Origin: Nitrospirota bacterium
GTDB lineage: Bacteria; Nitrospirota; Nitrospiria; JACQBZ01
Assembly (NCBI GenBank): GCA_016201865.1
Contig: JACQCA010000034.1
Span: 1 to 34,604, forward strand
Reading direction: 5' to 3'
DNA: 34,604 bases
Shown: positions 24,968-34,604 of the stretch, in pieces
Layout of the letters: each line of letters opens with the position of its first letter
Numbering within the stretch: position 1 is the first letter of the stretch
The notes under the pieces: generated by a model
The model's database searches: none
Seen by the model: the letters and a program-made list of their open reading frames with translations, nothing else
What the model was told of the DNA's origin: nothing
Made by a program: the position numbers and the translations under genes

Positions 24968-25516
24968 TCAACGGCCGTAAAGAGCCGTGAGCTTGGCTTT
25001 GCCCAATGCATTCTGATTCAAATAGTAACCCACCAGCGCCCCGCTCGCATCTTCTTTGAGCGGCAACTGATCTACTTTCAGCGCGAACACGGTAAAGATA
25101 TAGCGATGCGGCTTATCCCCGACCGGTGGACAGGGGCCGCCGTAACCCGGCTGACCAAAATCGGTCCTGCTTTGAACGCTGCCTTGGGGAGCCAGCCCGC
25201 TGTCGGGCTTACCGGCGTTGGCGGGAAGTTTGTTGACCGAAGGAGGAATATTGAAGACGACCCAGTGCCACCAGCCGCTTCCCGTCGGCGCATCGGGATC
25301 ATAAACGGTGACCGCGAAGCTTTTGGTATCCTTGGGCGCATTCCGCCAATCGAGTTCCGGAGACACATTGCCTCCGGTGCAACCAAAACCGGAGAAAACC
25401 TATTCGTTCCCGACCGTCCCTTTATCTTTCAGAACCGGGCTGGATAAACGAAAATTTGCGGCGAAGCATGGAACCGCAACGAGGATCAAAACCAATGATA
25501 ACCAGATTCGTGACAT
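24968..25516 (-). pseudogene. YbhB/YbcL (PEBP/Raf-kinase-inhibitor-like) gene with in-frame amber stop
   Basis: From the ATG at 25516 (AAAGGAG upstream) the frame encodes a signal peptide ending PCFAA, then LSSPVLKDKGTVGNE, a TAG at codon 39 (25400-25402), and continues without further stops as [18 protein letters not shown] to 24968. The rest is a complete PEBP fold: [50 protein letters not shown]. Uninterrupted it would have 182 residues. An internal start could give only a truncated, unsecreted protein. Related proteins often carry Gln before VFNGFGC, so CAG to TAG would explain the stop; a sequencing error is possible. The family binds phospholipid-like ligands; the bacterial role is unclear. 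Confidence 0.8.
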
Positions 25517-25626
25517 CTTCTTCTCCTTTCGTTGAAAGAAATTGATTTTCGGGATTCAACACCCGGCCGACCGGATCTCATTCCTTCGCCCCGGCTTTCT
25601 TCAGTGCCGCGGGCGTGATTCGGGCC

Positions 25627-25656
25627 ATTCTATCTAAATACAAACACCTCTGTCAA
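25627..25656 (-). promoter_or_regulatory. Sigma-70-type promoter for the YbhB-family gene
   Basis: On the minus strand TTGACA (25656-25651), an 18 bp spacer and TAGAAT (25632-25627) lie about 110 bases before the ATG at 25516. An intact promoter in front of a gene with a stop mutation suggests that the mutation is recent or an artefact. Confidence 0.6.
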
Positions 25657-25675
25657 AGAATTGCGCCGCTCCCCT

Positions 25676-26134
25676 TTATTCCGATCGACCCGTCTTCTTG
25701 CCGCTCTCGGGCTCCGGCAGGGGCTGCCGTAAAACTATAAAAAGATAGACCTGCGTCATCAGCACCCCCAGGGAGTCGATTCCGACATCGGCAAGGCTGG
25801 ACGTTCGTGCCGTCACGAACCTCTGATGGTATTCATCCAGCATCGCATAAGAAACCGAGATCGCCAGCGCCCAGAGCGCCCATCGGGGAGACCAGTCTTG
25901 TTTTCCCTGTCTGAAGGCCCTCAACCAGAGATAACTGAGAATCGCGTATTCCATCACGTGGGCCAATTTTCGCAGGATCGAGTTCATGAGGAGCATGGTG
26001 TGTTGCGTCATTTGCGGAAACAATACGCGAAGGGTAGGCTCAAGAAGATTAAACGTGTTTGAAGAAGAACCCGCGTCCGTCGATAAAAAGAAGATCAATC
26101 CCATCCACAAGACGGGCCAGAGATAGTGGATCAT
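25676..26134 (-). CDS. VanZ family membrane protein
   Basis: The product has 152 residues with four hydrophobic helices. Family marks are WPVLWMGLIFFLS at the start, the RKLAHVMEYAILSYLWLRA segment with conserved His and Glu, and DEYHQRFVTARTSSLADVGIDSLGV, the conserved Asp-Glu-x-x-Gln/His...Asp-x-x-x-Asp region. VanZ-type proteins are known from teicoplanin resistance, but most chromosomal members have no proven role, and no van genes are present. The ATG at 26134 is chosen because upstream residues in frame are Pro/Gly/Arg-rich and unlike the family; the ribosome site is weak. Confidence 0.8.
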   Translation of the reverse strand: MIHYLWPVLWMGLIFFLSTDAGSSSNTFNLLEPTLRVLFPQMTQHTMLLMNSILRKLAHVMEYAILSYLWLRAFRQGKQDWSPRWALWALAISVSYAMLDEYHQRFVTARTSSLADVGIDSLGVLMTQVYLFIVLRQPLPEPESGKKTGRSE

Positions 26135-26312
26135 CGGAATCCAGACCCCCGGCTCTCTTGGCGGCTTGCGTAAGAGATTTCCCGAACTTCTCCATGGCGG
26201 CCCTGGGCGCGATCCAGGCCCCCATGGCCATGGCACCGATCAAGCAGACGCCTTAGATTTTTGCCGGTGAGCGGTTTTGGTTTTCTATTCATCTATCCCA
26301 ACTTTATACTTG

Positions 26313-26336
26313 GTGCCCCCGGGGTGATTTGAACAC
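26313..26336. repeat. 24 bp direct repeat, copy 1 (tRNA 3'-end-like, candidate att site)
   Basis: It is identical to 26432-26455. On the minus strand it reads as a T-loop (TTCAAAT) followed by CACCCCGGGGGCAC, and with the adjoining bases ends GGGGGCACCA, including an encoded CCA. The T-stem has one mismatch. Upstream on the minus strand no D-arm or proper anticodon arm can be folded, so it is a tRNA 3' fragment rather than a gene. Confidence 0.6.
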
Positions 26337-26431
26337 GCACCGCGCCGAAGGCGCAGAATCAAAATGCCGCGCGCCAGCGCCTTCCTTGCGGGAACAAATC
26401 ACTCCCGATGAGTTCAATGCGTATATAAAGC

Positions 26432-26455
26432 GTGCCCCCGGGGTGATTTGAACAC
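26432..26455. repeat. 24 bp direct repeat, copy 2 (tRNA 3'-end-like, candidate att site)
   Basis: It is identical to copy 1, 119 bp away, and lies 50 bp beyond the 3' end of the recombinase gene. Here the T-arm is perfect (GGGTG-TTCAAAT-CACCC) and a TGCCCC about 60 bases upstream could pair with GGGGCA, but the whole unit is only 67 bases and lacks a D-arm. Integration into tRNA 3' ends is usual for tyrosine recombinases, so it is probably an attachment site or its scar. Confidence 0.6.
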
Positions 26456-26504
26456 CCGGCCAACGGTTTAGGAAAAATCAAATTTCCGACGACGGGGCAT
26501 CAAC

Positions 26505-27647
26505 CTACGCGGGATCTATGTTATGGGCTATGTCAGATCCACCCTGCTTGTCCCGGTTTTGATGGGCCTGGGCTGCCATCGCCTCGTGATACTTCGTGAG
26601 CTTCTCCCCGGCCTGCACGATGTCGGTGTGGCTCACGATATCGTATCTTCGAAACACGCTGTCGGTCTTGTGACCGGAGATCGCCATCGCCACGGACTGA
26701 GGCACTCCGGCCCGGATGAGGTTTCTCACGCCGGTCCTTCTGAAATCGTGCATCATCTTTCCCGTCAGCCCGGCATTCTTCGTAGCCGTGTTCCAGGCCC
26801 GCTTGTAGCTCTGGTACTTTTGGCCCTTGTAGTGGCAGATCCACTGACACCAGGGATAAGCGGCCCTGGTCTCCAGTTCCCACCATTCCAAGGTGTCTTT
26901 CAGGTCTTTGATGAGTGGGATCTCTCGGCCTTCCCCGCTCTTTGTCGTCCCTGTTTCAAGCCTCAAGGTCCCGTTCTTCAGATCCACCTGGTCCCATCTT
27001 AGGCCGAGTATCTCCCCGGCTCTCATGCCCGAGTAAAAGGCGAAGGTCGCCACGACCTTAAGGTGATTGGGCAACTTTTCCTTAAGCCTGATAAAATCCT
27101 CCAGTTCAAAAAACCCGATCCTGACGTTATCCTCCTTGAGGATGGGGAATTTCGGGATTCTCACCACCAGGGGTGGGTCCTCCTGCATGCCCAGCTTGAG
27201 CATCCTGCGTAGCGCGGCCAGTTCCCGGTTGATCGTGCTGTCCATCACCTTCTGTGCTTTTCTAACCTCTCTGTATCGCCACATCTCCGCCGTGGTAAGG
27301 TCAACCGCCCTGAGATGTCCGAAATGCTTTCGGATCAATTCAGCTAACTGCTCGGCTCGGCCAATGGATTTGAGGTGATTCACCTCATAGCTCTTAAGGT
27401 ATAGCTCCACCAAATATTCAATCCGTGTCTTGGTGGCAATAATATCAACTGCTCTTCCTTCTGCCAGCCGTCCTTCCTTGACCTTTAAGAGCCTCTTGGC
27501 ATAATTAAAATCGGTGGACTTTGAACTCTCCCGGTAGACCTTCCCGTCCTTGCAGTACTGTATCCACCAGTACTTGTTTTCCTTCCCGGTTCTGATATAT
27601 TTCCCATTTTCCTTTTTCCATTGTTGTGGCTTGTAAACGGTCCCCAT
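26505..27647 (-). CDS. Tyrosine recombinase / phage-type integrase
   Basis: The 380 residues comprise an N-terminal Arm-type DNA-binding region (about 1-75, WWIQYCKDGKVYRESSKS), a core-binding SAM-like domain (about 80-175) and the catalytic domain. Active-site residues are visible: Arg in YSGMRAGEILGLRW, Lys in TGTTKSGEGREIPL, HDFRRTG (His-x-x-Arg), GHKTDSVFRRYD with His and the nucleophilic Tyr. All are present, so it could be active. The ATG at 27647 has AAAGGAGG upstream. Its 3' end faces the tRNA-like direct repeats, the usual arrangement for an integrated island. No phage structural genes are seen. Confidence 0.93.
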   Translation of the reverse strand: MGTVYKPQQWKKENGKYIRTGKENKYWWIQYCKDGKVYRESSKSTDFNYAKRLLKVKEGRLAEGRAVDIIATKTRIEYLVELYLKSYEVNHLKSIGRAEQLAELIRKHFGHLRAVDLTTAEMWRYREVRKAQKVMDSTINRELAALRRMLKLGMQEDPPLVVRIPKFPILKEDNVRIGFFELEDFIRLKEKLPNHLKVVATFAFYSGMRAGEILGLRWDQVDLKNGTLRLETGTTKSGEGREIPLIKDLKDTLEWWELETRAAYPWCQWICHYKGQKYQSYKRAWNTATKNAGLTGKMMHDFRRTGVRNLIRAGVPQSVAMAISGHKTDSVFRRYDIVSHTDIVQAGEKLTKYHEAMAAQAHQNRDKQGGSDIAHNIDPA

Positions 27648-27837
27648 TGTTCATCACCTCCTTTCCATCGGACTGTTTTTGAAAGATTGAGAGACATTGA
27701 CCTCCTGCCCCGACAGGTCCCAATATAGCACAATGTGGTGTCGATTTCATTCGTTAAAACGGGCCGGCTCTTGGGCAGCGGAAAGAGGCATGGGAGGGAT
27801 ATGGTATTTCACAGGCGCTGCCTCATATACCATTATA

Positions 27838-27957
27838 TTATAGTAATCGTTCCTTGCGTTTCTCGATCCAGGCATCGAGATCCTGAATGTCCAAGCGAAC
27901 GTGGAAATTATTTGCTGCATTATGGGCCTCAGGAAAGCGGTCGATTGGATCGTCTTT
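27838..27957 (-). pseudogene. Excisionase/AlpA-like C-terminal remnant
   Basis: A stop-to-stop frame of 39 codons encodes FHVRLDIQDLDAWIEKRKERLL before TAA at 27838, given here from residue Phe; this matches the end of helix-turn-helix excisionase-type proteins (a VRF-x-x-x-D-L-x-A-W-x-E-x-R-K pattern). Two stops (TAA TAG) lie just upstream and there is no start codon, so the DNA-binding N-terminus is lost. Its place upstream of the integrase fits a former int-xis pair. Confidence 0.4.
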
Positions 27958-28253
27958 CTATTATCAATGTCATGAACGGATTAGGAGTTTTCGATGGATT
28001 ATTTCGCATAGACAATAGTAACACCTTTGGTTTCATACTAACGAATGAAAATCGGCCACACAATTCAATTTTGTGGCATCTTTTCTCGAGAGGAATAAGC
28101 AGCTTGGCAGATGATCCTCCGGTGGGAACAGCAAAACCTTCGCCGAGCGCTTGTCGAACGATGGTTTTTTAGTCGTTTATTAGTAGTCAGGGAAGGAAGT
28201 CAGGAGAATTACCAAGGTTGGGTTGGCTCTAAATCTAAATCCTTAAGACAACT
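27958..28253. other. Non-coding, AT-rich island DNA
   Basis: I see no supported gene in these 296 bases on either strand. Frames that stay open lack ribosome sites and resemble nothing known. With the excisionase remnant it makes a gap of about 600 bases between the integrase start and the end of the ClpP-like gene, consistent with decayed mobile DNA. Confidence 0.5.
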
Positions 28254-28793
28254 TCATTCAATTTCATCGATTAAGCCGAATTTTTTGGCATCTTCAGCCG
28301 TCATCGCTTTATCTTCTTTGAACTTCTGTTTAATTTCCTCAATTGTCCTCCCTGTTGATGAGGTTAGTATGTTATAGATTTCCTCTTGCTTTTTTCTGGT
28401 CTCTGCCATCGCCACTTCGATATTTTCTTCAAGCTCGGAGAGGTTCTTTCGAACACTAACGCTGTGAATCAAAATCTCGGTGTTTCTGAATGCAATCCTG
28501 GGACGGCAAGCTTGTAGAATCACGGCCGCCATCGAGCTTGCCATTCGGTACACCATTCCTACAATAGGAGCTTTTGAATGTTTGATCATATCATATATGT
28601 CGAGGCCTGCATCGGTGCAACCCCCGGGGCTGCTGATGTAAAGAGTGATTGGATCTACTTCATTCTGTGCATTCAGCCATATAATTGATCTGCCAATCTT
28701 ATTTGCTTCGTTAGTCGTAATATCGCCATATAAGTAGATCCTTCTCCTTTTCAAGAGATCCTCATCAAACTGTTTAATTATTGTCTCCCCCAT
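28254..28793 (-). CDS. Short divergent ClpP-type serine peptidase
   Basis: The product has 179 residues, against about 195-207 for housekeeping ClpP. The catalytic triad can be placed at S87 (RMASSMAA), H110 (EILIHSVS) and D161 (KEDKAMTAEDA), followed by the usual KFGLIDEI ending. The oxyanion-loop SSPGG is present. The N-terminus (MGETIIKQFDEDLLKRRRIYLYGDI) lacks the typical ClpP start and axial-loop sequence, so docking to ClpC or ClpX may differ; this is inference. A strong AAGGAGG lies 9 bases before the ATG. It sits alone between the integrase region and the envelope operon in locally AT-richer DNA, which suggests transfer. Confidence 0.88.
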   Translation of the reverse strand: MGETIIKQFDEDLLKRRRIYLYGDITTNEANKIGRSIIWLNAQNEVDPITLYISSPGGCTDAGLDIYDMIKHSKAPIVGMVYRMASSMAAVILQACRPRIAFRNTEILIHSVSVRKNLSELEENIEVAMAETRKKQEEIYNILTSSTGRTIEEIKQKFKEDKAMTAEDAKKFGLIDEIE

Positions 28794-28834
28794 TTTCCAT
28801 GACCTCCTTTTTCACATTTGGGGCATTTCGTCAT
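28778..28834 (-). CDS. Possible 18-residue leader peptide overlapping the ClpP-like gene start
   Basis: An ATG at 28834 opens a frame reading MTKCPKCEKGGHGKWGRQ and stops at 28778, overlapping the ribosome site and first codons of the ClpP-like gene in another frame. The Cys-x-x-Cys pair is reminiscent of a metal-binding knuckle. No clear ribosome site precedes it. It may be a translational-control leader or chance. Confidence 0.25.
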   Translation of the reverse strand: MTKCPKCEKGGHGKWGRQ

Positions 28835-28949
28835 AAAAATCCACCGGTCCTATCAGCATTACAATAACCAACTTATATTCATTTCACAAAACCACAAAGT
28901 AGACGGTGGAACAAAGGATAATGTTGGAAGGTTTTTTGAGGATTTGTAC

Positions 28950-29198
28950 TTATTTCATTAATCGCCTCAGGAGTCTTTGCATCGTATTCAGTCTCCAGAC
29001 ACACAAATTGCAACTCTCAATGTGACGTTCCAAAACGTGATACTCCCTTGGGAGGTTTCGGTAGGAAACCTGCACGATCTTCGGAAAATGCACAAGCCAG
29101 TCTGCATACCCCAGGAGCTTCTCAAAGGAGATATGAAGAGAAGGGTTTTGGGACGAATGAAGATTGCGATGCCGTGTTTCTTTGACAGGATGTGCCAC
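28950..29198 (-). CDS. Small protein with zf-HC2-like motif
   Basis: The product has about 82 residues from a GTG at 29198 preceded by GGAGG; an ATG at 29225 is an alternative. The C-terminal half carries ERHIESCNLCVWRLNTMQRLLRRL, where His-x3-Cys-x2-Cys is the metal-binding pattern of anti-sigma zinc-finger (zf-HC2) domains. No sigma factor gene or transmembrane helix is found here, so the anti-sigma role is only suggested. It lies 60 bases after the last FlgO-domain gene on the same strand and may be the end of that operon. Confidence 0.45.
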   Translation of the reverse strand: MAHPVKETRHRNLHSSQNPSLHISFEKLLGYADWLVHFPKIVQVSYRNLPREYHVLERHIESCNLCVWRLNTMQRLLRRLMK

Positions 29199-29257
29199 TA
29201 TTCCCTCCAGAAAACCAGATCCCATTTATCCGACTGGTTTCCCGCGGCATATTGTAT

Positions 29258-30385
29258 TTACCATTCCCAACGGTACATCAGCCGGACTCCATCCTTGTCC
29301 GGCATCAGGATCACGCCATCCCCTTTCGAACCCTCGGCTTGAAAATATCGGAGCGTTTTTGCGGAACGAACCACGTGCTGAATATCATAGATCCATATGA
29401 TCCCCGCCAGAGCTGCGAATCCATAAACAGGGTCTTTTCCCCTCCGCTCCAGGTGGCTTTTCCCTGTGTCATCGGTGACAGATATTAATTCATCTGTCTT
29501 CTTAGAATAATAGATCGCCCCGTAGATGGATCCTCCAACACCTGCGGCGAACAACCACCAGTCGTCATGCCCCAGGTATAAATCTCCCGCTCCGGGCAAA
29601 AAGAAAGAAAGAGTCCCTGCCAGCGCGGGGCTTGGATAGGGTGAGAGAGAAAATTCCATCCTGAGTTCCTGCCCCTCACTGAGATCAATCGACTTGCTTT
29701 GCGATTGATACCCGTCTTTTTTGACCATTATGGTATAACTCCCCGGTTTTACCGGTTCGATGGTCAAATTTCCCCAGAAATCGGTCTGGCTTACCAGAAC
29801 TTCATTGAGATAAACATCCGAATTACCCCGCGTCCGGATAATAAATTTTCCCGGGTAGGGTTCTCCCAGGAGCTTTTTCATATCCCGGTCCTTCTGGATC
29901 AGGACTTCCCCGGTAGCCATCACGGCCAGGGTCTCAAGGTCCACCAGTTTGGTATTAATCTTCAGAGATTCCGGAAACTCGGTGATAACACTCATAACCA
30001 GGATTTCTGTGCCGGTGAAGCGCCCGAACCGTTTCAAGCGCATGGGATCGACCAAGTCGGTCATATTGTTCAGTTGGAGTTCCCGGACCGCCTCCATGAG
30101 CAACCTCCGCTCGACCAGTCGGGCTCCCCGGAGAGACATCGATGAGGCCAGTGCATCGGCCAAAAAGGCGCCGAGGTCGGTCGTCTCTCCCTTCAACGTG
30201 GTAAAATCGACAACGGCAATCATTTTCTGTCCAATGTCAGACTGTTTATTCCATAACTGCGTACCGAGCGCCGAAATTCCCTCATCGTGTCTCAGGGGAC
30301 GGGACTCTCCGGCAAACCCATCCCCCGGGTTCAAGGCAAGGAGAAGGATCCACACAAATAGGATTCTGCCAGGCCGACTGCGCAT
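29258..30385 (-). CDS. FlgO-domain protein with PEGA and C-terminal DUF5683-like membrane region
   Basis: The protein has 375 residues and is exported. Signal sequence: about 1-25 (RILFVWILLLALNPGDGFA). A FlgO/CsgG-like domain (about 50-165) is marked by KMIAVVDFTTLKGETTDLGAFLADAL, LVERRLL and GRFTGTEILVMSVI. A PEGA-type beta domain (about 185-250) carries SDVYLNEVLVSQTDFWGNLTI and KPGSYTIMVKKDGY, and a hydrophobic C-terminal region starts with LSFFLPGAGDLYLGHD, as in DUF5683/TM2-like proteins. The ATG at 30385 follows AAGGGG; an ATG at 30412 overlaps the upstream gene and would lengthen the start. The domain mix suggests an outer-membrane or peptidoglycan-facing assembly factor. It pairs with the FlgO-domain gene upstream. 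Confidence 0.75.
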   Translation of the reverse strand: MRSRPGRILFVWILLLALNPGDGFAGESRPLRHDEGISALGTQLWNKQSDIGQKMIAVVDFTTLKGETTDLGAFLADALASSMSLRGARLVERRLLMEAVRELQLNNMTDLVDPMRLKRFGRFTGTEILVMSVITEFPESLKINTKLVDLETLAVMATGEVLIQKDRDMKKLLGEPYPGKFIIRTRGNSDVYLNEVLVSQTDFWGNLTIEPVKPGSYTIMVKKDGYQSQSKSIDLSEGQELRMEFSLSPYPSPALAGTLSFFLPGAGDLYLGHDDWWLFAAGVGGSIYGAIYYSKKTDELISVTDDTGKSHLERRGKDPVYGFAALAGIIWIYDIQHVVRSAKTLRYFQAEGSKGDGVILMPDKDGVRLMYRWEW

Positions 30386-30399
30386 CTTCCAAGGTCCCC

Positions 30400-31494
30400 T
30401 TATCGCTTCCATCTTGACCGGAGATTTTCATTCTCCTTCTCTCCGCTATCCGGGAAACCCGGACGAATATTCGGGATGATCACCTCCACCTCTTCATGGC
30501 GGTAAGGTTCCCGGGGATTATTCTTCCAGCGGACACCGTATTTCCCTACATACGAGAATTCGACGCCCGTCTCTTTTTCTTCCGGCATAAAAGTGATCCG
30601 GTTCAATAATCCCCGGTGGGGAATCAGATCGATCCCGCCATAATGATTTCCGACCTGTGTGTCGTCTTTGAACAACCATTTTTCTCCGGTATCGCCCAAC
30701 AGGTAGGTTTCCTTGTGATCGGCAGCATAAGCCCTTCCCCATCCGGAGGAGGCCAGGCGCAGGGTCTGATCCGTCCGGTTCTCATACAAGAGTTCCAGAA
30801 CAAGATTTCCCCGGATATTTGCCAGCGACTTTACCTCGATCCTCAAAAGATCGTTTTCAAAATAGAGACCGCCGCGTTGAACTTGTTGTGATGGTTTTGA
30901 GCCGGGGGCTTCAATTCCATCTACGGAAAGACTTTTACCGATGAATGGCTTCTCGGGGATCATCTCTTTCCAGAGCTGATTCACCCGATCATCCCGGAGG
31001 ATCGTCACCACGCTTGTCGCCAAGACCTCCCCCCGCTCGGTGCTGAACAAACGGGCATGGATTTCCACCGTGGATTCAAAAAGGGTCAAATTGCCTGACA
31101 ATATGGCATCGGCGCCAATATACCGTCCCAGTTTTTTTGTCGTGGCCGGATCAAAAAGATCCGACTGATTTACCTGAAGTTCCTTTAATGCCCTCTCCAA
31201 TTGCACCCGTTCAATGATACGGAGATGGCCGTGTTTAAAAAGCTTGCCGATCAGCGCCTCCGTCACATACCGCCCGAGCGCCGGGACCTCCCCCCGAAGT
31301 GTGCGGAAATCCACCACCGCCACGGTGAGACGGGAGTTCCGGGGTACCTGTTCGGCAATCCTGCCGGAGATTTCATCCAGGCCCCGGTCCAGACTCCATT
31401 CCTGCGAGGCTCTCACTTCCCCATCCATTGGGGAAAGGCCTGCCAGGAGCAAAGAGCATAGCAGGATGAAGAACCCTTTATCATTCCGGCTCAT
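30400..31494 (-). CDS. FlgO-domain exported protein
   Basis: The protein has 364 residues with an N-terminal signal sequence (KGFFILLCSLLLAGLS). A FlgO/TolB-like domain (about 45-165) is marked by RLTVAVVDFRTLRGEVPALGRYVTEAL, RIIERVQLERALKELQVNQSDLFDPATTKKLGRYIGADAIL, and SGNLTLFESTVEIHARLFSTERGEVLAT. The rest (about 220-350) is a beta-rich domain of unknown type with an NRTDQTLRLASSGWGRAY segment. The ATG at 31494 has GGAGG nine bases upstream and overlaps the end of the preceding gene by 14 bases, so the genes are translationally coupled. FlgO in Vibrio is an outer-membrane protein needed for flagellar stability; here there is no flagellar context. Confidence 0.75.
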   Translation of the reverse strand: MSRNDKGFFILLCSLLLAGLSPMDGEVRASQEWSLDRGLDEISGRIAEQVPRNSRLTVAVVDFRTLRGEVPALGRYVTEALIGKLFKHGHLRIIERVQLERALKELQVNQSDLFDPATTKKLGRYIGADAILSGNLTLFESTVEIHARLFSTERGEVLATSVVTILRDDRVNQLWKEMIPEKPFIGKSLSVDGIEAPGSKPSQQVQRGGLYFENDLLRIEVKSLANIRGNLVLELLYENRTDQTLRLASSGWGRAYAADHKETYLLGDTGEKWLFKDDTQVGNHYGGIDLIPHRGLLNRITFMPEEKETGVEFSYVGKYGVRWKNNPREPYRHEEVEVIIPNIRPGFPDSGEKENENLRSRWKR

Positions 31495-32992
31495 GATTTC
31501 GTCCCTCCTCCCATAGAAGCAACTGTTCCCCAATCGCATCGGACACCTGCCGGGCCGCATCTTTTAACCCCTGAATCGCCGCCTGTTCATAAGAACCTCC
31601 AAATCCTGCCAACGCCACACTGTTTTTCTGAGCGACCACTTCCCCGGTTTCCAGATCCACGACCCGGATATAGACATCGACCTGACTGGACAGAACCATG
31701 CCCAGGTTGTTACCGCTCTTACGGCCTGATGCCGTCCCGGTGACCACAAGCCGGGTTCCATGTCGCAACTCCGGCCGAACCGGCCACAGATTTTCTTTCT
31801 GAAGGGCCACCCGTAACCGTTCCACGGCATTTCTCCCGATTTCATGCTCCGAGATCACCCGAAACCCCAGGCCCATCAATTTCTCCGAAAGCGTCTGTCC
31901 CACAATGGATTCCTCCGAAGCCTTTCCCAAAAGGGATTCTTCCACAAGGATCAGGAGGGGGGAATGCGTGAACGAAGGAGGTTTTTTGATACTAAACACC
32001 GCCCGGAGGGAATTCCGGCCATTTCTATCAAGCATATTAATTTCAGGAAAATAAGCGGCCATTTTTTCCACATTCAGTTCCGCCAGAATATGATGGACAC
32101 CGGCCGGGAGGCTTTTTTTGAAATGGCCCAGATCCAAGCGGGCCTTACCGGAAAAATCCGTGTCGATTTCAGCCAAGACAGGTTCCGGTTGACCTTCCCG
32201 ATAAAAACGGACCGGGACACCTTCCATGGGAATACCCTCCCCCTCTACGGCCTCCATAACCTGAACGAAAAAATCCACAGGGGAATCCCCTTCAGTGGAT
32301 GCTTCATCCCCGGACAATCGAATCACTCTCAGGTTATCAAGAAGAGAGGTCATCCGGTCCATAACTTCCTTTTCCAAATAAAGACCGCTCAACTCTCCGG
32401 CTGACCGATAGGCATTGGCATAATGCCTCATGGCGTCAACAAACTTCCCGTCGCTTATCGAGCGGTCACCTTCCCGCATTTCCATCCCGAATTGCGCCGC
32501 CCCCGCCCTCTTTTGTGCGTCCATCCGGTCCTTGGCCTCTTCCACCATCGCCAGAGGGTAATGGACCAAGACGAACACCTCATATCCCTTCGGGCCGGAT
32601 CGAAAACACCATTTTTGAAGGAGTCCCCCTTGGAGGAAGGCCCGGTCCGAGAAAAAAGTCATCTCTTCGAGGAGACGGGTTTCCACCTCGGAACGGATCT
32701 TTTTCCCTTCCTCCCGGAGTGTGATCCCCAAATATTCCAGCACCTGACCTGCGGCATTGAGCAACGCCTTTTTCTGTCCCTCCTCCAACGTGGATGCCGT
32801 GGCGACACCCACCACGGCGACTGTATCGCCCGGTTGCGGAGGCCTTGGGACCCATGCCGGATCCGGGCACAAGGTCGAACCGTAGACCTGCCCGAAAGGG
32901 GACAAGAGGGCCAGGATTAAAACAAATGCGAAAAAGACCCGCCGATAGTTACATTCTGTGGTTAAATCCATTCTCATCGGATACCCTGACAT
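31481..32992 (-). CDS. Exported LPP20/FlgT-like protein
   Basis: The protein has 503 residues with a signal sequence (about 18-38, VFFAFVLILALLSPFGQVYG). The first mature domain matches LPP20 (VAVVGVATASTLEEGQKKALLNAAGQVLEYLGI, then a KGYEVFVLVHYPLAMVEEAKDRM end). A helical segment with ISDGKFVDAMRHYANAYRSAGELSGLYLE follows, then a beta-sandwich-like middle (GVPVRFYREGQ...). The C-terminus is a TolB/FlgT-type domain (LVVTGTASGRK...DVYIRVVDLETGEVVAQKNS...GLKDAARQVSDAIGEQLL). The sequence of LPP20-like, middle and C-terminal domains recalls FlgT. The start at 32992 has AGGGG close by, while an ATG at 32977 is also possible. It is 4 bases after the upstream gene. Confidence 0.75.
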   Translation of the reverse strand: MSGYPMRMDLTTECNYRRVFFAFVLILALLSPFGQVYGSTLCPDPAWVPRPPQPGDTVAVVGVATASTLEEGQKKALLNAAGQVLEYLGITLREEGKKIRSEVETRLLEEMTFFSDRAFLQGGLLQKWCFRSGPKGYEVFVLVHYPLAMVEEAKDRMDAQKRAGAAQFGMEMREGDRSISDGKFVDAMRHYANAYRSAGELSGLYLEKEVMDRMTSLLDNLRVIRLSGDEASTEGDSPVDFFVQVMEAVEGEGIPMEGVPVRFYREGQPEPVLAEIDTDFSGKARLDLGHFKKSLPAGVHHILAELNVEKMAAYFPEINMLDRNGRNSLRAVFSIKKPPSFTHSPLLILVEESLLGKASEESIVGQTLSEKLMGLGFRVISEHEIGRNAVERLRVALQKENLWPVRPELRHGTRLVVTGTASGRKSGNNLGMVLSSQVDVYIRVVDLETGEVVAQKNSVALAGFGGSYEQAAIQGLKDAARQVSDAIGEQLLLWEEGRNHEPE

Positions 32993-32996
32993 GCCC

Positions 32997-33821
32997 CTAA
33001 GGTGAAGTTACTTGAACCATTACATCGGATCCGGTGGGTGAACCCTGATCCACGACCCCGATGTAATACGCGCCGGTCTCCGTTGCCCGGAACCGGATAT
33101 CGTCGTTGGAATAAACATCCTGCATCTCATAGACATCCTGATCCACGGAGGGAATTCGCGAAAGATACGTATCCGTCCTCCCCTGGAGGAGCTGGACCCG
33201 GACGGTATAATCCTGGCCCCGTGTCCCGGAAAACATAAACCGGATCGTCTCTCCCGGAACCAACTTAAAGAGGACCGGATCATCATTCTCAAGCAACGGC
33301 ACGGTTTCCGTGAGAGACTCAAGGTTCTCATCGTAGGAATAGATGCGGACCGAATAAGCGCATCCGCTTCCCGTATCTTGAACGGCGATATAATATTCTT
33401 CCTTTCCGGATTCGGCGGCGAAGGTCAGCGAGTCATTGGAATAGTAATCCACCAGGGCCGTATGGCTCGGATCGATCAGGTACACCGGAGAGACATAGGT
33501 GTGGCAGGTCCCCGTCGTCGTCTTGACTTTAACCGTATACGAGTGCCCCGCCGTGACCGGGAAACGCCAACCATCGACTTCATCCGGCGGCAGGTAAATC
33601 GCGGAGGGAGGATCGTTGACCCGTAGAACGGTCGTCCTGGAGGCATCCCAGCAGGTTCCCGACTCGCATATTACCTCTTCAGGCTTCACCGCCGGGCCGC
33701 AACCGGATAGGACCGGAAGCAAAAGAACGCCCAGAAGGATGAGAGAAGCCCCTCGCCGCCGGATCTTTAAATTCCGGTTCTTGTCTGCCGTCAATGGATT
33801 ATGGAAAACCATCTCGTTCAT
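32997..33821 (-). CDS. Lipoprotein with two PPC-like beta domains
   Basis: The protein has 274 residues. After a basic stretch the hydrophobic segment LILLGVLLLPVLSGC provides a lipobox (LSGC). The mature part holds two related beta domains of about 110 residues. Each has the pattern of bacterial pre-peptidase C-terminal (PPC) domains: GHSYTVKVKTTTGTC...YYSNDSLTFAAESGKEEYYIAVQDTGSG in the first, and GQDYTVRVQLLQGR...VYSNDDIRFRATETGAYYIGVVDQGSP in the second. No protease domain is attached, so it is probably a surface or periplasmic binding module. The start may be 33821 or the next ATG at 33812, whose spacing to AGAGG is better. Confidence 0.72.
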   Translation of the reverse strand: MNEMVFHNPLTADKNRNLKIRRRGASLILLGVLLLPVLSGCGPAVKPEEVICESGTCWDASRTTVLRVNDPPSAIYLPPDEVDGWRFPVTAGHSYTVKVKTTTGTCHTYVSPVYLIDPSHTALVDYYSNDSLTFAAESGKEEYYIAVQDTGSGCAYSVRIYSYDENLESLTETVPLLENDDPVLFKLVPGETIRFMFSGTRGQDYTVRVQLLQGRTDTYLSRIPSVDQDVYEMQDVYSNDDIRFRATETGAYYIGVVDQGSPTGSDVMVQVTSP

Positions 33822-33837
33822 CCTCTCTCCAAAAATG

Positions 33838-34458
33838 TCACTGCTCCTTCTCAATAATGCCCAGAAGACGCTCTTTCGCTCCACGCGCCGCCTGCTCCGC
33901 CCGGCGGTCTTTTTCCTGAATCGCCTTCTGAATCATGATATCCGCGGCCATCTGGGCGGCGCCGGCGTAGTCTTCATTGCTGATCTTGACCACCGCATAG
34001 GACCGGTAATAATAAGACAGGCGGTTTCCTTCATTCCGTTGGTATTTTTCCCAGTACGGTCTTTCCAAAAAAGCGCCGCTGACCCGGACCCGGCTGGTAA
34101 CTAATGCCACGGAATCCTCGATAAATCTCCCGACCGCATCCCGATCAGTCCCGCTCAGCCCCTTCAAGGCCTCCGACCGGATATCGGCGGCAATCGCCTC
34201 GACAATATGCTGCTTACCCGTCAATTCGGCGCTCCGGATCCCCACATCCATATCGTGGGACTGATCCCCCGTGCCGACGAAATATTTGTATCCATTGCTC
34301 TCCGCAAAACCCAGGTTCTTTTTCACCAGGTCGGGCTTATCCCCGCTCGTCTCCACCAGGGATTCCGCGCCGACCATCGGCTTGTTTGAAGCACATCCCG
34401 CCAAGGCTCCTCCAAGAACCAGAACGACTAAACCGGAATAAACCCACAATCGATTCAT
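33838..34458 (-). CDS. LPP20 family lipoprotein (FlgP-like), first gene of the operon
   Basis: The product has 206 residues. The signal peptide ends in a clear lipobox (GGALAGCAS), so Cys22 is lipidated. The mature domain is LPP20-like: GYKYFVGTGDQSHDMDVGIRSAELTGKQHIVEAI, then a helical RDAVGRFIEDS segment, VRVSGAFLERPYWEKYQ and RSYAVVKISNEDYAGAAQ, ending in a charged coiled-coil tail. FlgP of Vibrio has this fold. The ATG at 34458 is next to an inserted IS element, and no Shine-Dalgarno sequence remains in the usual window. The signal peptide and mature protein are intact, so the insertion lies in the leader, not the gene. Confidence 0.78.
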   Translation of the reverse strand: MNRLWVYSGLVVLVLGGALAGCASNKPMVGAESLVETSGDKPDLVKKNLGFAESNGYKYFVGTGDQSHDMDVGIRSAELTGKQHIVEAIAADIRSEALKGLSGTDRDAVGRFIEDSVALVTSRVRVSGAFLERPYWEKYQRNEGNRLSYYYRSYAVVKISNEDYAGAAQMAADIMIQKAIQEKDRRAEQAARGAKERLLGIIEKEQ

Positions 34459-34465
34459 TGTGAAC

Positions 34466-34604
34466 TGGACTGCACCCCTGAAACTGGACGAACTATGTTA
34501 GAGTACCCGACAGGATCACCGGCCCCCGATAAGGGGCAGAAAGGATCTTGTCATGAGAAGTCAGCGAACCTTCAGTTCCGAGTTCAAACGCCAAGTGGTC
34601 GAGG
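34466..34604 (+). mobile_element. IS3-family (IS150-like) insertion sequence, left end only
   Basis: The element starts at about 34466 with TGGACTGCACCCC, followed by CTGAAACTGGACGAAC, which resembles the IS150-group terminal inverted repeat (TGtACTGCACCC...TGGACGA). A short GCCCC/GGGGC hairpin lies at about 34523-34538, before the transposase start. The rest of the element is beyond the right edge, so its length, right end and target duplication are not visible. Confidence 0.7.
34553..34604 (+). CDS. IS3-family transposase OrfA, N-terminal fragment at window edge
   Basis: The ATG at 34553 has AAGGA upstream and the frame is open to the edge: MRSQRTFSSEFKRQVVE. The FSSEFKRQVVE start is characteristic of the helix-turn-helix OrfA of IS3-family elements, which is fused to OrfB by -1 frameshifting to make the DDE transposase. 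Only 17 codons are visible. Confidence 0.75.
   Translation, partial: MRSQRTFSSEFKRQVVE

Follow-up and report, generated by a model that had tools for sequence, protein, structure and literature searches.

A candidate flagellum-independent envelope complex of H-ring-type modules, carried on a tRNA-Arg island in Nitrospirota

The window analyzed here, a 34,604-nucleotide stretch of DNA from a Nitrospirota bacterium (assembly GCA_016201865.1, contig JACQCA010000034.1), carries on its minus strand an operon of five tightly packed genes, P1, P2, P3, P4, and P5 in that order (29258-34458), in which modules of the flagellar H-ring type occur together with PPC and PEGA domains (Table 1). Spacing between neighboring genes runs from -14 to about +16 bp, the lower value being the 14-bp overlap of P3 and P4; a sixth small gene, P6, lies 32 bp beyond P5, and the P2 start at 33821 is preceded by a Shine-Dalgarno-like stretch, GAGAGAGG. 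The genes, their order, and the mixture of flagellar folds with PPC and PEGA modules are as reported in a preliminary description made from the sequence alone. Homologous genes stand in the same order in other genomes, which makes chance open reading frames untenable, and the operon is real and conserved. P1 and P2 bear lipoboxes; P3, P4, and P5 begin with hydrophobic signal segments and were found to have no lipobox. A literature search returned no published description of this gene set, and sequence comparison yielded no convincing relatives among solved structures.

Table 1. Genes of the operon and features of the surrounding island (positions in the window).
Feature	Position	Strand	Description
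P1	33838..34458	-	206-aa lipoprotein, lipobox LAGC, Ala at +2, divergent LPP20-like domain
P2	32997..33821	-	274-aa lipoprotein, lipobox LSGC, two PPC domains
P3	31481..32992	-	503-aa exported protein; LPP20/FlgT_N-like N-domain, helical and immunoglobulin (Ig)-like middle, CsgG/FlgT-middle-type C-domain
P4	30400..31494	-	364-aa exported protein; FlgO/CsgG/LpoB-type N-domain, Ig-like C-domain
P5	29258..30385 (alternative start 30412)	-	FlgO-type domain, PEGA domain, conserved hydrophobic Gly/Trp-rich tail
P6	28950..29225	-	91-aa protein, HX3CX2C motif
ClpP-type protease gene	28254..28793	-	Pfam CLP_protease 7.3e-40; PHROG head maturation protease 6e-31
Tyrosine integrase	26505..27647	-	Pfam Phage_integrase 9.9e-21; PHROG 1 integrase 2e-49
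Attachment (att) site	26432..26475	-	44-bp exact copy of the tRNA-Arg(CCU) 3' half
Second tRNA-Arg 3'-end copy	26311..26336	-	26 bp, start-to-start spacing of 119 bp from the 44-bp copy

Pfam recognizes the PPC domain of P2 in two stretches (E = 6.3e-8), as expected of the PPC-domain lipoprotein it had been taken for. P2 was seen in the window only: a search of the window's own genome found no second copy, and the other loci were inspected by eye. P1 had been called an LPP20 lipoprotein, of which the lipobox holds while Pfam gives no match, LPP20 included. An LPP20-like assignment comes instead from profile-profile comparison with the LPP20-type N-domain of LPP20 plus CsgG-like proteins of the same phylum (97.4%, E = 9e-12), in an alignment that partly covers the signal peptide and with a protein group that is itself weakly LPP20 by Pfam (1/6 members, E = 0.0056). 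Set directly against P3, P1 scores weakly (37%); control pairs, including P1 with the FlgT_N family and P3 with P4, remain under 1%. In G254, a genome of another class, a P1 counterpart with 49% identity occupies the same place in the locus and is followed directly by P3, with no P2 counterpart between them.

The relationships of P3 are likewise clearer in profiles than in single-domain searches. Its reading as an LPP20/FlgT-like protein is backed by hhalign matches to LPP20-type proteins with a CsgG-like domain from the same phylum (98.9%, E = 3e-17) and, for the C-domain, to the middle part of a family in which Pfam finds FlgT_N in 10/10 members (96%, E = 5e-9), but Pfam itself places LPP20 (0.22) and CsgG (0.056) below cut-off. 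FlgT_N reaches only E = 0.087 in the G254 homologue, and FlgT_C is not matched in P3. In the AlphaFold2 model, the C-domain (about residues 345-500) has a predicted local distance difference test score (pLDDT) of mostly 75-90, and a Foldseek search of the PDB with it retrieves CsgG (1.1e-5), the LPHT ring (8z5n, 1.1e-5), FlgT (3w1e, 3.7e-5), and PelC. All four are outer-membrane-associated ring formers. Ring formation by FlgP and FlgT has been described (PMC12222027), and in the Campylobacter FlgP family it is correlated with an insert that separates the SHS2 helix from the second strand (PMC12222027).

P4 and P5 are clear paralogues in their N-domains (E = 1.4e-27), and both are present in all four genomes known to carry the operon. 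Pfam supports P4 as the FlgO-domain protein of the preliminary description (PF17680, 1.3e-5), with CsgG (2.7e-9) and LpoB (PF13036, 1.7e-6) also over cut-off; the CsgG match spans only positions 9-105 of 210. By structure, the best match of the P4 N-domain is LpoB (Foldseek, 6.4e-7, TM 0.76 of target), with GNA1162 and TolB also found, and the C-domain is modeled as Ig-like. P5, which is conserved in G015, G254, and G306, had been read as a FlgO-PEGA-DUF5683 protein: PEGA is over cut-off (1.7e-6) and FlgO is at it (PF17680, 1.1e-4), but DUF5683 is not matched in the window and reaches E = 0.063 in the G254 homologue. In G254, P4 (L034 7291-8667) ends in a C-terminal cytochrome c (Cytochrome_CBB3, 2.3e-12) whose CXXCH motif reads CVVCH, and the G306 protein (L051 1814-3214) has the same CVVCH in its C-terminal tail; the P4 proteins of the window and of G015 have no cytochrome domain. 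Attachment of heme c takes place outside the cytoplasm, and P4 is therefore exported at least in those two genomes.

The core P1-P3-P4-P5, or as much of it as the contig contains, occurs in three Nitrospirota genomes besides that of the window (G000), giving four carriers in two classes. G254 has P1-P3-P4-P5; G015, from the window's class, has P3-P4-P5 in order at a contig end; and G306, from the class of G254, has P4-P5 on a 3.4-kb contig. Among 270 genomes of the window's class, the full-length P4 family is confined to G000 and G015, and none of the window's family's six remaining members has it; strong P3 matches in a phylum-wide sample of 396 genomes come from G000 and G254 and no further.

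None of the DNA seen beside the operon (the window, 15 kb in G254, 9 kb in G015, and only 3.4 kb in G306) contains a flagellar gene, which agrees with the earlier remark that no such gene is visible. Of two flagellar markers, FlhA is missing from G000 and G254 but occurs in G015, and FlgH occurs in G306 but in none of G000, G254, and G015. Since G000 and G254 are each ~95% complete, the lack of both markers argues against a flagellum in them, and with it the L-ring that an H-ring surrounds. In the DNA seen, the gene set recurs away from flagellar genes, in line with the neighborhood comparison that the preliminary description had proposed; regular placement within flagellar clusters, which it had taken as telling against a separate system, is not what the comparison showed.

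An integrative genomic island at tRNA-Arg(CCU) carries the operon as cargo. The integrase gene lies by the repeats of the tRNA 3' end, the longer of which is matched exactly by an intact tRNA-Arg(CCU) near the end of another contig of the same genome (C50; L096 10260-10336). In two relatives, G023 and G005, a single tRNA-Arg(CCU) stands between C50-like DNA and DNA like the left part of the window, each genome having other insertions near this site. The integrase, the att copies, the intact tRNA, and the flanks in these relatives therefore identify 26.4-34.6 kb of the window as part of an element inserted at tRNA-Arg(CCU), with the DNA between C50 and the window's contig unassembled. GC content at third codon positions, which is lower in the operon genes, adds to the case for an island: it is 0.46-0.66 in P1-P6 and the ClpP-type gene, 0.70 in the integrase, 0.70-0.77 in most sampled chromosomal genes, and 0.64-0.65 in the pair of genes adjoining the att site. 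Trees of P4 and P5 (6-8 rows) do not decisively resolve the window against G015 and G254/G306, and the island is better evidence of transfer than these trees. The preliminary description, which covered neither the integrase nor the ClpP-type gene of the island, missed the island altogether, as it did the cytochrome c fusion in relatives and the equally LpoB-like character of the P4 N-domain. An Rfam scan of 25500-34604 found nothing, and P5 had no match in PLSDB, so that plasmid carriage is not supported. At the contig end (34493-34604), a plus-strand gene begins that, read by eye, resembles an IS3-type transposase (MRSQRTFSSEFKRQVVE).

We propose, at a probability of roughly 0.5, that the operon encodes a stand-alone, flagellum-independent periplasmic or outer-membrane complex built of FlgP-, FlgT-, and FlgO-type modules such as those of the H-ring and basal disk, and carried as island cargo. 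Signal sequences and the cytochrome of P4 point to this location; the complex is probably oligomeric, and its fold relatives suggest the shape of a ring. In such an assembly, P1 (and P2) would be lipoproteins of the outer membrane's inner leaflet, the LPP20-like domains of P1 and P3 would pack the two proteins together, and the CsgG/FlgT-type C-domain of P3 would mediate its oligomerization. A second layer may consist of the FlgO-type domains of the paralogues P4 and P5 and could be tied to peptidoglycan or membrane by the PEGA domain and hydrophobic tail of P5, while the Ig-like domain of P4 would be a face exposed for binding; in some lineages a cytochrome c has been added to it. In Helicobacter, a lipoprotein ring encoded next to FlgP protects the barrier function of the outer membrane (PMC11756786), and reinforcement is thus suggested as a possible role, so that the complex may act as a reinforcement or scaffold of the outer membrane.

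Several observations weigh against this proposal. The LPP20 domain predicted in P1 lies below Pfam detection, and P4 and P5 lack a lipobox. The AlphaFold2 models, built from few sequences, have a modest mean pLDDT of 63-65; in that of P3, the 35-residue segment at the position of the FlgP-type beta-hairpin insert is of low confidence. Domains of the CsgG/FlgO/LpoB type are found as well in regulators, such as LpoB, that do not assemble into rings, and there are only four known carriers, G306 showing just P4 and P5.

Among known systems, the closest comparison is the Vibrio H-ring or LPHT ring of FlgO, FlgP, and FlgT. The operon shares with it an LPP20-like lipoprotein, an LPP20/FlgT_N-like protein with a CsgG-like domain, FlgO-domain proteins recognized by PF17680, and the structural match of P3 to 8z5n and 3w1e. 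It differs in that two of its carriers lack the flagellum markers, in that FlgT_C is not detected, and in having a pair of FlgO paralogues extended by Ig or PEGA domains, together with a PPC lipoprotein and, in the window, an island location. By membership it is not a flagellar H-ring, although it plausibly works like one. The FlgP basal disk and FapH ring of Campylobacter and Helicobacter are similarly made of LPP20/SHS2-type disk proteins associated with the outer membrane (PMC12222027, PMC11756786), but they serve a flagellar motor, whose genes were not found in two of the operon's carriers.

The main rival, which we consider unlikely, holds that P4 and P5 act in the periplasm as LpoB-like regulators of peptidoglycan synthases, with P1-P3 as their outer-membrane anchors or partners, and that the operon serves to adjust cell-wall synthesis, without any ring. 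LpoB, the activator of PBP1B, is the closest structural match to the P4 N-domain, PF13036 is over cut-off on P4, and PEGA is consistent with a cell-wall link. Against this, P4 scores 30 bits with the NCBIfam LpoB equivalog, whose cut-off is 110, and has an extra Ig-like domain; LpoB is itself a lipoprotein anchored in the outer membrane, whereas P4 and P5 have no lipobox. Lpo systems, moreover, do not include LPP20 and CsgG/FlgT modules, and the cytochrome c fusion would go unexplained. That same fusion, present in G254 and G306, is the starting point for a reading that we judge still less likely, in which the complex is an envelope-sensing or redox-linked scaffold whose Ig, PPC, and PEGA faces bind ligands, whose cytochrome-bearing P4 transfers electrons, and whose HX3CX2C proteins signal. 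Small proteins with this motif lie downstream of the operon in both the window and G254, and a cluster in another genome (G048) joins LPP20-like proteins to a sigma-like gene and a zf-HC2 protein. Yet P4 in the window and in G015 carries no cytochrome, homology of P6 to the G254 protein is not demonstrable (11% identity), and the operon includes neither a sigma factor nor a sensor kinase.

We regard as improbable a CsgG- or PelC-like outer-membrane apparatus for secretion or assembly that would export a fiber or polysaccharide, or for instance the PPC protein. The resemblance of the P3 C-domain to CsgG and PelC and the over-threshold CsgG match on P4 speak for the fold class, but the match covers only part of the domain on P4 and a short part on P3, and P3-P5 lack the lipid anchor that, with a full CsgG domain, characterizes a CsgG channel. 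The window's own genome has no other CsgG match, and the operon contains no substrate or polymerase gene. Curli or Pel export as such was rejected on the partial CsgG domain and the absence of Csg or Pel partner genes from the operon. An anti-phage defense role was likewise rejected, PADLOC models giving zero matches of P1-P6 to known defense systems.

The stand-alone complex that we favor bears on how these protein families are understood. FlgO, FlgP, and FlgT proteins have been studied as add-ons of the flagellar motor; a conserved operon that joins their modules to PEGA, Ig, and cytochrome modules, in genomes where flagellar genes are not detectable and, in the window, on an island, indicates that the modules make up envelope systems in their own right. 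The operon offers small natural sets for testing LPP20/CsgG-type assembly without a motor, bears on the origin of the motor's outer-membrane rings, and suggests that rings of this type may also function independently, as a machine of the envelope that can be transferred. More tentatively, and with clear doubt, we envisage a mobile, flagellum-independent ring or disk that evolved from the H-ring or was ancestral to it and moved between Nitrospirota classes as a unit, and whose cytochrome-bearing FlgO-type subunit would make it a redox-active periplasmic scaffold in some lineages.

Related clusters elsewhere in the phylum were also seen. In G008, a genome of the window's class (L083 4474-13042), a vWA-like gene is followed by a FlgO-FlgT_N fusion lipoprotein, CsgG, a putative beta-barrel, and proteins of the LPP20 and LPP20 plus C-domain types; the 16 kb seen there show no flagellar gene. 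The cluster shares FlgO, FlgT_N, CsgG, LPP20, and LPP20 plus C-domain modules with the operon, but in it FlgO and FlgT are fused in one lipoprotein, the CsgG is full, putative beta-barrel and vWA-like proteins are present, and neither PEGA nor PPC was seen. The G048 cluster (L014 4009-10479), also with no flagellar gene seen nearby, comprises a caspase-domain protein whose C-terminal stretch resembles the C-domain of P3, the sigma-like gene, the zf-HC2 protein, and two LPP20-like lipoproteins. Together, the G008 and G048 clusters point to a wider, poorly described LPP20/FlgO/CsgG envelope repertoire in Nitrospirota. At three further loci (L087 6312-11389, L089 4085-9474, L090 4706-12430), a Ser/Thr kinase-like gene, a thioredoxin/TPR-like gene, and genes for FlgO-type/TPR proteins are clustered, and at two others (L037 8357-9565, L040 8045-9232) FlgT_N-family proteins are encoded among acpS-, pdxJ-, and nnr-like genes, not flagellar ones. 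FlgO relatives in G318, in G251, and in one large family of the window's class are single genes and not the operon. At L085 6937-7914 and L086 7126-8091, a lone FlgO-type protein whose C-terminal region resembles that of P4 is encoded directly upstream of a thiD-like gene; in one family of the class, most genomes have similar FlgO-type proteins that match P4.

The membership of P6 in the system is uncertain. It had been called zf-HC2-like, but Pfam gives no match, and a zf-HC2 anti-sigma identity was dropped, leaving the HX3CX2C motif alone as real (chance by shuffling, 0.16% and 0.26%); this motif is also all that P6 has in common with the 97-aa protein downstream of P5 in G254. There, the small HX3CX2C protein directly downstream of the operon is flanked by two ~505-aa proteins with P-loop-like motifs and no Pfam match (L034 2626-6094). 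The ClpP-type protease is probably not part of the operon system, no such gene being seen at the loci of the other carriers; the gene has a GC content of only 42% and is close to phage head maturation protease families.

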